From: Ignavibacteria bacterium
GTDB lineage: Bacteria > Bacteroidota > Ignavibacteria > UBA10030 > UBA6906
Direction of reading: 5' to 3'
Assembly: GCA_003251275.1 (NCBI GenBank)
Contig: QKGJ01000038.1
Coordinates: 1-32,774 of the forward strand
Length of the DNA: 32,774 bases
Below are positions 9,947-16,650 of this stretch, piece by piece (position 1 is the stretch's first letter; each line of letters begins with the position of its first letter). The position numbers and the translations under genes are program-made. The notes beneath the pieces were generated by a model, which was not told the origin of the DNA, ran no database searches, and was given only the letters and a program-made list of their open reading frames with translations.

Positions 9947-10701
9947 TATCCCATCCAAAAGACTTTGCCAATCAATTTCGCTCCGGCCATCACCAACACC
10001 ACGCCGAGTACTCCCTGGAGAATTCTTGCGCTGAGTTTGAATGCTCCCATACGGGATCCGAGAAAACCTCCGCCGACCGCAGCAACGACGAGCGGAAGAG
10101 CGCCTGCCATATCGAAGGACGATCGCGACAAATGTCCAGCAAGCCCACTGATGGAATTGAGAACAATGAACGCACTGGAAATTGCCGCAGTACGTTTCAC
10201 ATCAGCCCAGCGGAACAACAACAGAATCGGACTGAGAAACACGCCGCCGCCGATACCGATCATTCCGGAGACAAATCCGAGAGCCCCTCCGATGGGAATG
10301 CTTGCACGCAACGGAACATTCCGGAGCGTTCCTACCTCGGGGGGGGTATTCCAAAAGAAAATACGGCCGGCAGCAAGCAAGAGTGCGGCACCGAGCAGAA
10401 CGGAAAACACTTCAGGGGATATCGCCGTGAATCCGCCGAGAAAAGCAGCCGGAAGAGAAGAGGCAACGAACGGCCAGAGCATCTTCCATGAAAAATGTCC
10501 CCCACGATAATAATGCCAGCAACTTGTCGACGCGACGAAAATATTCAGGACGAGCGCAACAGGTGCTACTGCGGGAGACGCAACGCCAAACAGCGCAAAC
10601 AACGCAAGGTACCCCGATGCGCCACCGTGTCCGACGCTGGAGTAGACGAACGCAACAAGAAAAAAAAACGGAACTATTTCCCACGGATAGGTGAGTGTCA
10701 T
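9946..10701 (-). CDS. Sulfite exporter TauE/SafE family membrane permease
   Basis: 251 aa polytopic; VGHGGASGYLALFALFG and GALGFVSGMIGIGGGVFLSPILLL repeat motifs of TauE/SafE. Confidence 0.88.
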   Translation of the reverse strand: MTLTYPWEIVPFFFLVAFVYSSVGHGGASGYLALFALFGVASPAVAPVALVLNIFVASTSCWHYYRGGHFSWKMLWPFVASSLPAAFLGGFTAISPEVFSVLLGAALLLAAGRIFFWNTPPEVGTLRNVPLRASIPIGGALGFVSGMIGIGGGVFLSPILLLFRWADVKRTAAISSAFIVLNSISGLAGHLSRSSFDMAGALPLVVAAVGGGFLGSRMGAFKLSARILQGVLGVVLVMAGAKLIGKVFWMG

Positions 10702-11633
10702 TATTTCTTCTTCCGCGGTTTCTCCGGATGTCCTCCTCCCGAAAGCATTGCCGCAGAATGAAGTAATGCAGGGAAGAGCGCATCAAGTGAATCGGCGACC
10801 CCCTTTTTTGAACCGGGAAGGTTCACAATAATGGTGTTACCGCGAAGACCGGCAATGCCGCGAGAGAGCATGGAATACGGAGTTCTTTCCTGCCCATATG
10901 CACGCAGCGCTTCCGGTATGCCGGGAATCTCACGCTCGATCACTTGGGCAGTCGCCTCAGGAGAAAAATCCCGTTTGCTGAAACCTGTGCCTCCTGTCGT
11001 CAGCACGAAGTTTACCTTCATCGTATCGGCATACGCAATCAGCTTCTTCTGGATTTCCTCCTGGTCATCCGCAATGACGTCGTACGATACCACCGCAATT
11101 CGCTCTTTCTCTAAACGTTCGACGATCAGTTTGCCGGACAAGTCCGTTTTCTGTCCTGAAGAAATCGAATCAGAGGTAACCAACACCGCCGCTTTGAGGT
11201 CCGTACTTTTCTCTTCGAGAAAGTCCGACTTTCCTCCCCGTTTCTCCTCAAGGCGTACTTCCCCAATGGTCATTGTACTGTCAATTTGTTTCAGCATGTC
11301 GTACAGCGTAAGCGCTGCCACGCTCGCGGCGGTAAGCGCTTCCATTTCCACACCGGTCGGATGAATTGCTTTCACTTCGGTTGTGATGGTGATTTCCTTT
11401 TCTCCGAGTTGGATGTCGCATCCCACAAAGGTGAGCGGAAGAGGATGACAATAGGGAATAATCTGACTGTTGTTCTTCGCGGCCTGGATTGCGGCAACCT
11501 TCGCTACCGGGAGAGGATCGCCTTTCGGTACCGTTCCTCCGCGGATACGCGCGATGGTTGCGGGCTTGAGTGTGAGCACCGCCTTTGCTTTTGCAGAGCG
11601 AAGCGTTTTGGACTTTTTAGTGATGTCATACAT
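10701..11633 (-). CDS. moaCB: Bifunctional molybdenum cofactor biosynthesis protein MoaC/MoaB (fusion)
   Basis: 310 aa; N-terminal MoaC (IPYCHPLPLT, GVEMEALTAASVAALTLYDMLK) and C-terminal MoaB/MogA (TSDSISSG, TTGGTGFSKRDFSPEAT, NLPGSKKGV). Confidence 0.92.
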   Translation of the reverse strand: MYDITKKSKTLRSAKAKAVLTLKPATIARIRGGTVPKGDPLPVAKVAAIQAAKNNSQIIPYCHPLPLTFVGCDIQLGEKEITITTEVKAIHPTGVEMEALTAASVAALTLYDMLKQIDSTMTIGEVRLEEKRGGKSDFLEEKSTDLKAAVLVTSDSISSGQKTDLSGKLIVERLEKERIAVVSYDVIADDQEEIQKKLIAYADTMKVNFVLTTGGTGFSKRDFSPEATAQVIEREIPGIPEALRAYGQERTPYSMLSRGIAGLRGNTIIVNLPGSKKGVADSLDALFPALLHSAAMLSGGGHPEKPRKKK

Positions 11634-11639
11634 GAATGT

Positions 11640-12647
11640 TCAGCCGCCGATGGCAACCATGGATCTGTTTTGCTCTTCCAGGAGTGTGTTTGTGTCAGGA
11701 TGTTGTTCGCGTTTTAGGATGACTGTCATGCGAATGGAATCTTCGATCACTTCATGCGATGCACCTGACCGCAGTAGTCGCCGGAGATCGATCTCTTCGC
11801 GCCCAAAGAGACAGTTGCGGAGCTTACCATCGGCAGTAAGCCGGATGCGGTTGCATGAATCGCAGAAGTGCTCCGTCATTGTTGTTATGAAACCGACGAC
11901 TGCATCGCTGCCTGCAATGTGGAATTCCTTCGCAGGTCCGGGAATGCCTTCCGCCGGTTCCGCCGGTACGAGCTGGAATCGGGTTTCGAGAATTCCCCTC
12001 ATTTCCTTGTATGGCATCATGCGCACTTCATTCCAACTGTTTCCGAGAAATGGCATGTATTCGATAAAGCGGACATGAAGAGAACGGGCCTTGGCGAATG
12101 CCACGAAGTCTGGAAGCTCATCATCGTTGAATCCTCGCATTACCACTGTGTTGATCTTTAATGACGCGAAACGGGCATCTAGTGCAGCATCGATCCCGCG
12201 GATTGTTTCATCAAAGAGCGAGCGAAGTGCGATGCGCTCGAAGCGTTCGGGCTTCAGTGTATCAAGGCTGATGTTCACGTGGTTCACTCCAGCGGCTTTG
12301 AGTACTCTTGCTTTGTCTGTCAACAATACACCGTTTGTTGAGAGAGCAAGCGTCTCCAATCCCGGAATGCCGGCGAGCTGCGAGCAAAGGTCCTCGACAC
12401 CCTTGCGGACGAGAGGTTCTCCGCCGGTCATCCGGATCTTTTTTACCCCAAGGTCGACAAAGAGTTTTGCAAGCGTTAGTATTTCATCGAAGGAAAGGAG
12501 GGAAGATTTGGGACCGAGTTCGATTCCCCCCGGAGGCATGCAGTAGCGGCAGCGGAGGTTACACCGATCCGTTATGGAAATTCTCAGGTAGGTATGCTGG
12601 CGGCCAAAGTTGTCGAGGAGCCGGGAGGGTCTGGCGATAACCATCAC
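11640..12647 (-). CDS. moaA: GTP 3',8-cyclase
   Basis: 335 aa; radical-SAM CNLRCRYCMP, C-terminal FCDSCNRIRLTADGKLRNCLF cluster, C-terminal GG. Confidence 0.96.
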   Translation of the reverse strand: MMVIARPSRLLDNFGRQHTYLRISITDRCNLRCRYCMPPGGIELGPKSSLLSFDEILTLAKLFVDLGVKKIRMTGGEPLVRKGVEDLCSQLAGIPGLETLALSTNGVLLTDKARVLKAAGVNHVNISLDTLKPERFERIALRSLFDETIRGIDAALDARFASLKINTVVMRGFNDDELPDFVAFAKARSLHVRFIEYMPFLGNSWNEVRMMPYKEMRGILETRFQLVPAEPAEGIPGPAKEFHIAGSDAVVGFITTMTEHFCDSCNRIRLTADGKLRNCLFGREEIDLRRLLRSGASHEVIEDSIRMTVILKREQHPDTNTLLEEQNRSMVAIGG

Positions 12648-12994
12648 TGTTCCTTTGAGAGTACATCATCCACCCAGCTGAGTGCAGCCATCATCGAGGG
12701 AAGTCCGATGGTTGGGAGTGACAATAGCGCTACCTGACGGATCTCCCCTGCGGTGGCTCCCGCGTTCAATGCTTTTCGGACGTGGGAATGAACAGCACCT
12801 TCAAGCCGGGCGCCAACCGAAATGCCGAGTTTTATCAACGATCTGGTTTTCTCATTCAGCGGACCGGCAGCATGAACGGCAGCGCCAAGCTCCTCGTAGG
12901 CCTTGGCCACCCGGGGATAAGTCTCCTGGAATTCTTGAAATTTTTTTGGAATGGGCGACATAACATCCTCCCGGCGTTCTTCGCCGACGTTCAA
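12644..12994 (-). CDS. Carboxymuconolactone decarboxylase/AhpD-like small protein
   Basis: 116 aa; LNEKTRSLIKLGISVGARLEGAVHSHVRKALNAGATAGEIRQVALLSLPTIGLPSMMAALSWV, CMD-family pattern; ATGA overlap with moaA. Confidence 0.85.
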   Translation of the reverse strand: MNVGEERREDVMSPIPKKFQEFQETYPRVAKAYEELGAAVHAAGPLNEKTRSLIKLGISVGARLEGAVHSHVRKALNAGATAGEIRQVALLSLPTIGLPSMMAALSWVDDVLSKEQ

Positions 12995-13013: not shown

Positions 13014-14855
13014 CTAGAAGGAAACCGAAGTCTGCAAATACCCCCAGAGCGCTACATCACTGGCATTAAATGCCTGTCGCATCAAATCATCAGGGAGAAA
13101 AGCGGACGTGCCGATTTCGAACGAGATGTTCTTATTGTGGCGATACTGGACGACAATGTCAATCTCTTGGCCAAGCGTTTTCTCATTGAGAACGCTTTGC
13201 GCAAGCGAAAAATGATGCAACCAGACATTTGCTGTCGTCTTTTCCGAGAGGGAGATGGTCGCGCGTGCGATCAGATCTGCAAGACCACGGTTCGATGTGT
13301 TTGCGGGGATATTGACAAAGTAGTCCATGAATCCGTAGAACTTATGTCCAGTGTGGAATGTCGGGTCGAAGGTCTTGAACTTTGCATCACCGGTGGGAGT
13401 GCCGGACAAGAGTTCATATCCCAGCGAAACACGGCTCAGCGCGCAATCCGAAAAAGAATACCCGAGTGCCCCGGATAGGAGATAAGCAGAAATGTCCACT
13501 CCCTGGCGTGTTCCTCCCTGGTATGCGACCTCAGCTTCATAATCGAGGGCGTTTGCTTTTCCCTTCACATATGAGCCGACCGTGGATCGTTTGAGGTTTG
13601 TTTTCCCCGAACCGGTGGTATCCCTGTTCACCTGATAAAGGAAGTACGGGTCGATGGTATGGTTCTCGATTCCTTTAACCTTCCCGTAGGCCCCGTAGAA
13701 ATCATACCCAGCATCATACATCGAACGAACAGAAGGCGGCGTGGCAACGACAGGGTATATTTGTGTTTCGCCCACGTTCATCGCAAGCGCATCGATTGTT
13801 ATTCCCGGCCAGTCAAAGCGAATCACACCGCCGTCAAATGAACGGCTCACGTTGTTCCACCCTACGGCGCCCAGCAAGCGCTCGTTACTGTAGGCCAGTT
13901 CCATCCGTCCAAGGCGGAGGGAAATCTCGTCCGCGAAAAGTTTCTTTACTTCCACGAATGCCTGGTGCATGTCCAGGTTTTTCGTATCAGCAAGGGTGTT
14001 AAAGGAACCGCCCGCGTCCTTTTCTGACCCGAAGACACGCGAATCCTGTGCCTGAATAAACACGAGAACATCTTCGAGCGGTTGCGCCTGAACTCCAAGA
14101 CGCGTTCTCAGCAGCGTGAAGGTGTTTGACGGAGTCCGTTGATTGAAATCGCGCATGTCCACTTCGTTCCGGACACGAACATTGCCGGTAATCTTAATAA
14201 GAGGTGCCTGGTCTTGAGCGTTTAATTGTTCTCCGATCAGAAAGGAGAATACCATCAATGCTAATGCCATTAACTGGATTGGCTTTGAACCAGCTGCTTT
14301 CGGAGCTACTTCATCTTTTTCCATGTTCGCAAGGAGCTCGATGAGCTGCTGTTTGGTCGAGCATGCCGCACTTTTTGCCTCTTCCGCTTGAAAGTCCTTC
14401 AACAATGCTGCCGCTTCGTCGGTGGAAAGATGCTGGTCTGCCATTGCAAAGAGAATATTGTCTTCTTTCATAATGTGGCTGCGAAGCAAGCCGATGAAAG
14501 ACTGAGTATGTTTAACGAGCGCCGGTCTCCCCGCAGGATCGCCTTTCGCGAATCGCTCAAGAGCGGCATTCATTGCAGCGACTTCCTGTCTCCCCAGGTC
14601 GTGCTCATGCAGCATAACGCCAATGGGTCCGGACTCCTGTGAGAATCCCTTTTGCACCATCGCCGGGAATAGCAGCTTTTCTTCCTTCTGATGATGACAC
14701 CCGTCGGCAAATTCCCTGATGAAACGAATGCCGTTGCGAAACACATCGGGGTGAACATCTTCTCCGCGGTGAAGTCGGCTTGCGGCGTTTTCAAGTAAAA
14801 TCAACATGCGTTCGATTGAGCGGTGCTCATCCTTCAATATATCTGTCGGTTTCAT
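13014..14855 (-). CDS. Hemerythrin-like domain fused in frame to an outer-membrane beta-barrel (alginate-export/porin-like) domain
   Basis: Start at MKPTDILKDEHRSIE (14855, SD aggaca) rather than the 15086 ORF start. N-terminus has hemerythrin His motifs (EHRSIE, CHHQKEEKLLFP, LHEHDLGRQE, HIMKEDNILFA). C-terminal part follows signal-peptide-like IQLMALALMVFSFLIGEQLNAQ, with barrel-type alternation and terminal Phe (LQTSVSF). Confidence 0.8.
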   Translation of the reverse strand: MKPTDILKDEHRSIERMLILLENAASRLHRGEDVHPDVFRNGIRFIREFADGCHHQKEEKLLFPAMVQKGFSQESGPIGVMLHEHDLGRQEVAAMNAALERFAKGDPAGRPALVKHTQSFIGLLRSHIMKEDNILFAMADQHLSTDEAAALLKDFQAEEAKSAACSTKQQLIELLANMEKDEVAPKAAGSKPIQLMALALMVFSFLIGEQLNAQDQAPLIKITGNVRVRNEVDMRDFNQRTPSNTFTLLRTRLGVQAQPLEDVLVFIQAQDSRVFGSEKDAGGSFNTLADTKNLDMHQAFVEVKKLFADEISLRLGRMELAYSNERLLGAVGWNNVSRSFDGGVIRFDWPGITIDALAMNVGETQIYPVVATPPSVRSMYDAGYDFYGAYGKVKGIENHTIDPYFLYQVNRDTTGSGKTNLKRSTVGSYVKGKANALDYEAEVAYQGGTRQGVDISAYLLSGALGYSFSDCALSRVSLGYELLSGTPTGDAKFKTFDPTFHTGHKFYGFMDYFVNIPANTSNRGLADLIARATISLSEKTTANVWLHHFSLAQSVLNEKTLGQEIDIVVQYRHNKNISFEIGTSAFLPDDLMRQAFNASDVALWGYLQTSVSF

Positions 14856-14869
14856 TGTTGTCCTATCGT

Positions 14870-16051
14870 TTACGAGTGATGGTGGATGCTTTCCACCAGG
14901 AGCGGGTCTTTGAGTGGGACGGGGTTTGCCTGTGCAAATGCTTTGAATGTTCCAAGAAAGAATAACGCTATCATCCCTGCAAACGGACCGATCTCCCAAA
15001 GGCTCACTTCCGGTCCGGTTTTCAAAAACGGCGGAAGGATCATCCAATACAAATCGATCCAATGGCCAATCATGATAATCACACACACCTTCAGAAGAAG
15101 GCCTTCATTCTTCTTGCTCCACTGGGAAAGAAGGACGACAAACGGGATCAACCAGTTGAACACCACATTGAGGCCTGCAAAAATCGTCCAGCTTCCTTTT
15201 TCACGATTGACGAAATAGACAACTTCTTCGGGAATGTTGGCGTACCAGATGAGAATATACTGGCTGAACCAAATATACATCCAGAACGTACTGAATGCAA
15301 AGATAAGCTTTCCCAGATCATGCAGGTGCGAGTCAGTGACGACCGTTCGAAGCGGGCCTGTGCGCCGCAGGATGATAACGACTACGGCGATGGCTGCGAG
15401 CCCGTTCAAGAGCATTCCGCTCAGGTTATACATGCCAAAAATAGTGCTATACCATTCCGGCTCCAGCGACATGATCCAGTCCATGCTCGCGAGCGTAAAG
15501 GTCAACGCGATGACAACGAGAAATCCGCCCGATAACTTTTTGTTTTTTCGGGTAAGAGAAACGTCACCTGTTGCATCCTGCTGACGGGAAAACTTGCGGA
15601 GGTAAAAGGCAAAGACAAACCAGACACTAAGGTAAAGGATCGTACGAATGACAAAAAAGGGAACGTTCAGCCATCCCGCTTTTGCCTGGAGAAGATGATT
15701 GCCTGAGACTGCGTCAGCGTGACTCCACTCGTACAAGCTTGGAATGCCCAGAAGGGTAATCACCATAAGGAGAGAAGCGATGGGGAGTATTCCTGCCAAT
15801 GCTTCCGGAGCGCGACGAATGGCGACACTCCAGCCGGCATTCGAAACATACTGAAGCGCAATAAAAAGAACGCCGGCAAGGCCGAGGCTGAGAAGATAGA
15901 AACTCGCGAGCAGGATATTCGGCCATGCTCTCTCAGGCGCGACGAATGCACCGATCGATGCAGTAATAGCGCCAAGTGCCATAACCAGAGCCAGATTTCT
16001 CCGAAGGCGTGGAATTCCTGCAAGAACATCTTCCGATTTATGGAGATTCAT
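14870..16051 (-). CDS. actF: Alternative complex III subunit ActF (quinol:cytochrome c oxidoreductase membrane subunit)
   Basis: Polytopic ~394 aa from MNLHKSEDVLAG; NILLASFYLLSLGLAGVLFIALQYVSNAGWSVAIRRAPEAL typical of ActF; position in act gene order. Confidence 0.88.
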   Translation of the reverse strand: MNLHKSEDVLAGIPRLRRNLALVMALGAITASIGAFVAPERAWPNILLASFYLLSLGLAGVLFIALQYVSNAGWSVAIRRAPEALAGILPIASLLMVITLLGIPSLYEWSHADAVSGNHLLQAKAGWLNVPFFVIRTILYLSVWFVFAFYLRKFSRQQDATGDVSLTRKNKKLSGGFLVVIALTFTLASMDWIMSLEPEWYSTIFGMYNLSGMLLNGLAAIAVVVIILRRTGPLRTVVTDSHLHDLGKLIFAFSTFWMYIWFSQYILIWYANIPEEVVYFVNREKGSWTIFAGLNVVFNWLIPFVVLLSQWSKKNEGLLLKVCVIIMIGHWIDLYWMILPPFLKTGPEVSLWEIGPFAGMIALFFLGTFKAFAQANPVPLKDPLLVESIHHHS

Positions 16052-16053
16052 AA

Positions 16054-16650
16054 TCATTTGACTGCAACCGTCGACTGAATGGGTTGTTGCTGAAGGGAGC
16101 GTATGTATGCCGCGACGCGCCACCGATCCGCGCGTACCACCTGGCTTGCGAACGAGGGCATGTTCCGCTGACCGTAGGTAATGATGTGATAGATTTGTCC
16201 GCCTTTCATGTTGACTGCATTCTGTGCAAACAATGAGGGAGGCGGAGGGAAACCATGTTTCGGGATTGTTCCATCACCAGTCCCGCCAGCTCCATGACAA
16301 GGAGAGCAAACATGAGCAAACACGACCGACCCCCGACGAAGATCGCTCAGACTGTCCTTTGGATCCAGTGGGCTGCGAAGCTCGTTGCCAGCACGAATGG
16401 CGTCTTCCAGGGTTGGCTTGTACGGGAACGGATCAAAATTTCGGACGACGGTTCCTTCCGCAGGGGGTTGCAGGATCTTGCCGTCGGGGAAGATCGGACT
16501 CGCTGACTGCGATCCGTATGCATCGGAATGCACCATACCCGGAAGCAGTTCTATGTTCGGGACAGTAAACTGCCGACGAACAAAAAATATAGTTCCGACC
16601 AAGACGAGGAGAATCAGGAGCAAAATACTATTCAGCAGATTTCGTGTCAT
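16054..16650 (-). CDS. actE: Alternative complex III subunit ActE (monoheme cytochrome c)
   Basis: 198 aa, N-terminal TM, one CSPCH heme motif followed by GAGGTGDG; RNMPSFASQV; position in act order. Confidence 0.87.
   Translation of the reverse strand: MTRNLLNSILLLILLVLVGTIFFVRRQFTVPNIELLPGMVHSDAYGSQSASPIFPDGKILQPPAEGTVVRNFDPFPYKPTLEDAIRAGNELRSPLDPKDSLSDLRRGSVVFAHVCSPCHGAGGTGDGTIPKHGFPPPPSLFAQNAVNMKGGQIYHIITYGQRNMPSFASQVVRADRWRVAAYIRSLQQQPIQSTVAVK

Follow-up and report, generated by a model that had tools for sequence, protein, structure and literature searches.

How a cytosolic di-iron domain and an outer-membrane beta-barrel came to share one reading frame, and whether that frame is genuine, is the question raised by a nitrate-respiration locus of an Ignavibacteria bacterium. 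The stretch analysed, called the window below, is the entire contig C174 (32,774 bases) of a MAG whose assembly amounts to 3.38 Mb in 412 contigs and is 94.6% complete. A first-pass annotation, made from the letters alone, had reported there a hemerythrin domain running in a single uninterrupted frame, through an internal signal peptide, into an outer-membrane barrel.

Two folded parts in one frame

The coordinates of that report were right and the frame proved to be open from 14855 to 13014 over 613 aa; the report omitted the strand, however, which is the minus strand (the plus strand at 13014-14855 has many stops). The translation reads MKPTDILKDEHRSIE ... IQLMALALMVFSFLIGEQLNAQ ... SVSF before the stop codon. 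Two Pfam domains were found above their cut-offs: PF01814 Hemerythrin at residues 3-139 (E 4.1e-21, 76.2 bits versus 25.3, profile positions 2-127 of 127) and PF13372 Alginate_exp at residues 222-597 (E 1.3e-38, 133.3 bits versus 25.2). Both are certain, and the frame is therefore not a chance ORF. Up to residue 190, and so also over 121-190, each block scored for codon usage favours it above the two other frames. Neither half contains a stop or a frameshift in the sequence, and both the di-iron ligands of the first and the conserved columns of the barrel have been retained. The positions of the features are collected in Table 1.

Table 1. Positions in the window of the fused ORF, its parts and its immediate neighbours
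Feature	Position	Strand	Remarks and basis
Fused ORF: hemerythrin-like domain, internal signal peptide, outer-membrane barrel	13014..14855	-	613 aa; Pfam
Hemerythrin HHE domain PF01814, YtfE/RIC-like	14439..14849	-	Pfam, YtfE alignment
In-frame ATG (M178), possible internal start	14322..14324	-	without Shine-Dalgarno
A5 run	14316..14320	-	gain or loss of a single base would terminate the hemerythrin gene immediately; three-frame translation
Junction, residues ~183-190 (VAPKAAGS)	14286..14309	-	ends and starts of homologues; disordered in the model
Internal signal peptide K191-A213 (KPIQLMALALMVFSFLIGEQLNA, then Q)	14217..14285	-	hydrophobicity, homologues, AF2 helix; predicted cut A213/Q214
Mature outer-membrane beta-barrel, AlgE-like PF13372, 18 strands, C-terminal Phe	13017..14216	-	Pfam, AF2, Foldseek
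actF (alternative complex III)	14870..16123	-	directly upstream, 14 bases ahead of the fused ORF
Carboxymuconolactone-decarboxylase/AhpD-like (CMD) gene	12644..12961	-	directly downstream of the fused ORF

The N-terminal half resembles YtfE/RIC, DnrN and NorA in being a hemerythrin-like four-helix domain with aligned ligands, found in nitrate-respiration loci; as in the YtfE/RIC group, Rrf2-type regulators adjoin the hemerythrin gene in several relatives. Of the RIC/YtfE ligand set H-HxxxE-H-HxxxE, which is present, five residues are directly aligned: H54, E58, H85, H127 and E131 match the YtfE di-iron ligands H129, E133, H160, H204 and E208 (PMC9268430; residue numbering read off the alignment), while H11 lies near the first YtfE ligand, H84, in an uncertain register. 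The ligands are also retained in the aligned close hemerythrin homologues. In a PDB sequence search YtfE gave the only matches, and the NCBIfam matches were to YtfE, RIC and DnrN, all far under the equivalog cut-offs (49.9 versus 254 bits for RIC). The AF2 model of this part is a four-helix bundle, weak at residues 54-75, i.e. around ligands H54 and E58. Unlike YtfE, the window protein has no N-terminal ScdA/DfCCgG domain, the two Cys of which pass electrons in YtfE (PMC9052748), the Hemerythrin match starting at residue 3; unlike YtfE/RIC, it is joined to an exported barrel. The cytosolic hemerythrin-like domain of the first-pass annotation is thus upheld, and its NO- or O2-responsive partner has to be modified: the domain resembles YtfE/RIC, an NO-generating nitrite reductase, as YtfE has been described (PMC9052748), or iron-centre protein, rather than a classic O2 hemerythrin. 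By analogy with the family, we infer that nitrite or NO formed during nitrate reduction would be the substrate dealt with by the di-iron part.

For the C-terminal half, the AF2 model of the fused protein (35-row alignment, mean pLDDT 82.6) shows a barrel of 18 strands between residues 220 and 612, for which AlgE structures are the best fold matches in Foldseek (E 3e-17). With the Pfam score above the cut-off, the modelled strands and the terminal Phe, the outer-membrane barrel proposed earlier is a PF13372 member, like the AlgE/Alginate_exp channels. Unlike AlgE, to which its identity is 12-15%, it stands in a setting of nitrite/nitrate reduction, and no alginate genes were recognised in the window. 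An NrfA-like gene lies within 2.5 kb of the porin gene and in the same orientation, usually at less than 200 bases, in 27 of the 49 loci whose flanks reach 2.5 kb or more on each side. This neighbourhood supports, without proving it, a role of the barrel in passing nitrite, nitrate or related anions; the earlier idea of a nitrate/nitrite porin is strengthened accordingly by the adjoining nitrite reductase genes. The barrel-NrfA adjacency (L066-L145) spans Ignavibacteria, other members of the Bacteroidota group and further MAGs, which outlines a candidate nitrite/nitrate porin family.

The order on the minus strand is cytochrome (narC-like)–narGHJI–narK1–narK2–actABCDEF–fused ORF–CMD-like–moaA–moaCB–tauE-like–mobA, the names having been assigned by homology and by reading of the translations. 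The fused ORF therefore does lie, as first described, between the alternative complex III gene actF and the moa genes of a nar cluster; every further window gene included in the comparison has an intact frame. NrfA was not found in the window genome (G000), either above the family cut-off or with the G039 protein as query, whereas sister genera carry it elsewhere in their genomes. NirK was not found in the window genome either, a nitrate reducer by its locus. A few side observations were made. The TTG start listed for the CMD/AhpD-like gene (12994) is probably wrong, ATG 12961 having a strong Shine-Dalgarno (dG -10.8); homologues of this gene (63-76% identity) follow the porin in L036, L159 and L160. 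At 10701-11633 of the minus strand, a MoaC-like and a MoaB/MogA-like part share one 310-aa frame (translation read by eye).

The join and the internal signal peptide

Close hemerythrin homologues terminate in LLTRLETQFPS, LLVRMEGEYVTPQLQK, LESLEKEFIP, LDRLEAEIFRETDTARS and similar sequences, each followed by a stop; close porin homologues start MKIKIVPSMMM, MRMRLLAFF, MKHLFILF or MRPLVLVC, and their signals finish AQ or SQ. The window reads LLANMEKDEVAPKAAGS-KPIQLMALALM across the join (junction sequence LLANMEKDEVAPKAAGSKPIQLMALALMVF), with the hemerythrin relatives ending at about residues 183-190 and the porin signal peptide beginning just after. Since the relatives end and begin at the edges of the junction, the hemerythrin is whole save its stop and the porin precursor whole save its start: by sequence comparison, one gene is shown to have lost its stop codon and the other its ATG. 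Apart from the Met, which is missing, the signal still has its h-region, its AQ cleavage context and, in the n-region, the charged residue K191. No other 15-mer of the protein is as hydrophobic as the core, I193-I207; the KD of this core, 2.47, falls within the range of 1.95-2.78 given by the N-terminal signal peptides of unfused homologues. AF2 models a hydrophobic helix at 194-208, preceded by a disordered linker at 161-191, and the internal signal peptide noted earlier is supported by both values and model. Cleavage is predicted between A213 and Q214, in the context LNA-QD.

That no stop interrupts the join says little in favour of design: only ~8 codons lack homology, and random joining would be in frame and stop-free about once in four (an estimate, 1/3 for the frame combined with a short linker). 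Inspection by eye of these ~8 codons revealed no leftover nrfA sequence.

Distribution of the fusion and of the separate genes

Among 60 relatives, 98 genomes from its order and 394 from its class (92 of these last with a match at E <= 1e-45), the fusion was found in the window genome only (match covering residues 1-613); it is known from one MAG contig, and the comparison genomes include no second member of its genus. In GTDB, none of the best 80 of the 325 stretches encoding a relative carried both domains in one frame. A conserved fusion, as expected of an FbcH-like polyprotein (see below), was thus rejected for the order, the class and the GTDB loci, and, with the fusion conserved in no relative, there is no sign of selection for it. 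The first-pass annotation had held that orthologues always found as two separate genes would speak against a real fusion; that is what was observed, and it counts against a conserved fusion, not against one confined to a lineage.

In the best-matching relative (G039, locus L032) the order is actF–HR–nrfA–porin–moaA, with a stop for each gene, HR being the hemerythrin gene and nrfA encoding a PF02335 protein with the CxxCK haem motif. Elsewhere the porin directly follows actF without HR (G009, G015, G025, G060 and G063), or a close hemerythrin homologue lies directly ahead of a narC-like cytochrome gene and narG (G028, G023, G151 and G063). The loss of a stop between two genes, one of the origins first considered, agrees with the separate genes of the relatives and with the nrfA found between them in G039. 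In the porin tree the window porin groups with seven unfused porins (support 100/99), which makes the fusion derived; the branching order inside this group is unsettled.

Other candidates were rejected. The long porin frames of some relatives (835, 1032, 672 and 609 aa) have no hemerythrin match; those inspected correspond to upstream stop-free sequence in the porin frame or to other barrel architectures. On plasmids, the tblastn matches listed were only PF13372-like barrels with 24-29% identity, no record reaching 80% query coverage, and neither plasmid blastn nor the viral contigs gave a match. A literature search for FbcH-like or hemerythrin-porin fusions found nothing relevant.

Some observations concern the neighbours of the separate genes. 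In L044, L155, L161 and L046 the genes for an Rrf2-type regulator, the hemerythrin and a narC-like cytochrome, and then narG, follow one another in a conserved order, which ties the hemerythrin to nitrate respiration and perhaps to NO-responsive control. The regulator and hemerythrin genes overlap by a few bases in L044; in L046 (17565-18650, minus strand, genome G023) they share a 362-aa open frame from stop to stop, in which the hemerythrin Met has no preceding Shine-Dalgarno, a possible regulator-hemerythrin fusion. In L033 (G009) the moaA gene 3' of the porin seems frame-shifted or broken (tblastn pieces in different frames).

Origin, processing and possible role

With a single MAG contig as the source, the observed frame could have been produced by a miscount of one base in the A5 run, its weakest point, or by the collapse of a segment carrying for instance nrfA. 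The other two frames stop a few codons past the run, where the hemerythrin would end in MEKR or MEKMK at a quite normal length, and nrfA is missing from a MAG that is incomplete. An indel, however, would leave the porin lacking a proper start (K191 is preceded by TCA, no start codon); moreover, over residues 171-190 the fused frame is the one preferred by codon usage, and the neighbouring genes are intact, so that an assembly or sequencing artefact is unlikely. The frame might also yield two proteins, i.e. a porin initiated internally at ATG 14324 (M178) or 14270 (M196) and a tailed hemerythrin from 14855. In-frame ATGs do exist ahead of the signal core, and weak Shine-Dalgarno starts occur elsewhere in the window, the duplex dG of its other genes going from -2.5 (NarK1) to -15.3. 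At the internal ATGs the values are -2.2 (14324, the one first described as having no clear Shine-Dalgarno), -2.9 (14270) and -1.5 (14255), versus -6.2 at 14855. Starting at M178, the n-region would be unusually long and acidic (MEKDEVAPKAAGSK); starting at M196, it would have no positive charge, whereas the closest unfused homologues start MK or MR beside the core. The fused frame also has no nearby stop for re-initiation, and internal initiation appears rather improbable.

A fusion that is real at the DNA level may still be neutral or decaying, with a poorly exported porin or a tolerated N-terminal extension and a coupling devoid of function. Its presence in one genome out of the class, its absence from the 80 GTDB loci, the ease with which chance can provide an in-frame join and the relatives of the same family that carry the porin without an adjacent HR are all in keeping with this. 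Against it stand two halves free of stops and frameshifts, with their ligands and barrel columns, and a signal peptide of still normal hydrophobicity; we regard neutrality as doubtful.

The fusion is thus probably real and lineage-specific. The reading that we favour, with a probability of about 0.5, is a real fusion of this lineage, plausibly arisen by deletion of nrfA, whose whole chain is cut into a tethered di-iron protein and a porin. As the comparison shows, a soluble YtfE-like gene and the porin gene following it in a nitrate-respiration locus were joined tightly, with loss of a stop and a start codon, and deletion of the intervening nrfA plausibly produced the join: nrfA loss is a natural origin because G039 has the gene between the two others and the window genome has none detectable. 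Insertion of nrfA between two adjacent genes in G039 would look the same, and the tree leaves the order of events undecided. Translation would proceed as one chain from ATG 14855, the only candidate start with a ribosome site. While its N-terminal domain folded on the cytosolic side, this chain would enter SecYEG by the internal signal sequence in an N-in/C-out orientation, and signal peptidase I would cleave at A213/Q214. The di-iron domain would then stay at the inner membrane through residues ~191-213, facing the cytosol, and the AlgE-type porin would be released to the Bam machinery and would pass nitrate/nitrite or similar anions.

The fusion is not a new kind of system. In Bradyrhizobium, signal peptidase cleaves FbcH, the precursor of cytochromes b and c1, at a signal inside the chain, and the fused ORF likewise has two proteins in one frame, joined at the internal signal peptide of the second, which lies between two folded parts. 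In contrast to FbcH, which provides two subunits of one inner-membrane complex, it combines a cytosolic di-iron domain with an outer-membrane barrel; FbcH processing has been shown, whereas that of the fused ORF is predicted. From its sequence, a two-compartment polyprotein is a possible and fair reading. More tentatively, such a polyprotein could supply the tethered di-iron protein and the channel in equimolar amounts, replacing the NrfA step or coupling NO defence and substrate entry.

If the fusion is real and processed, an outer-membrane porin would be exportable from behind a folded cytosolic domain, its signal peptide would at the same time anchor another protein by the C-terminus, and the locus would be a clean natural case of a gene loss possibly creating a fusion. 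Independently of the fusion, the comparison connects the PF13372 barrel family of Ignavibacteria-type bacteria with NrfA nitrite reductases and so points to a testable nitrite/nitrate porin.
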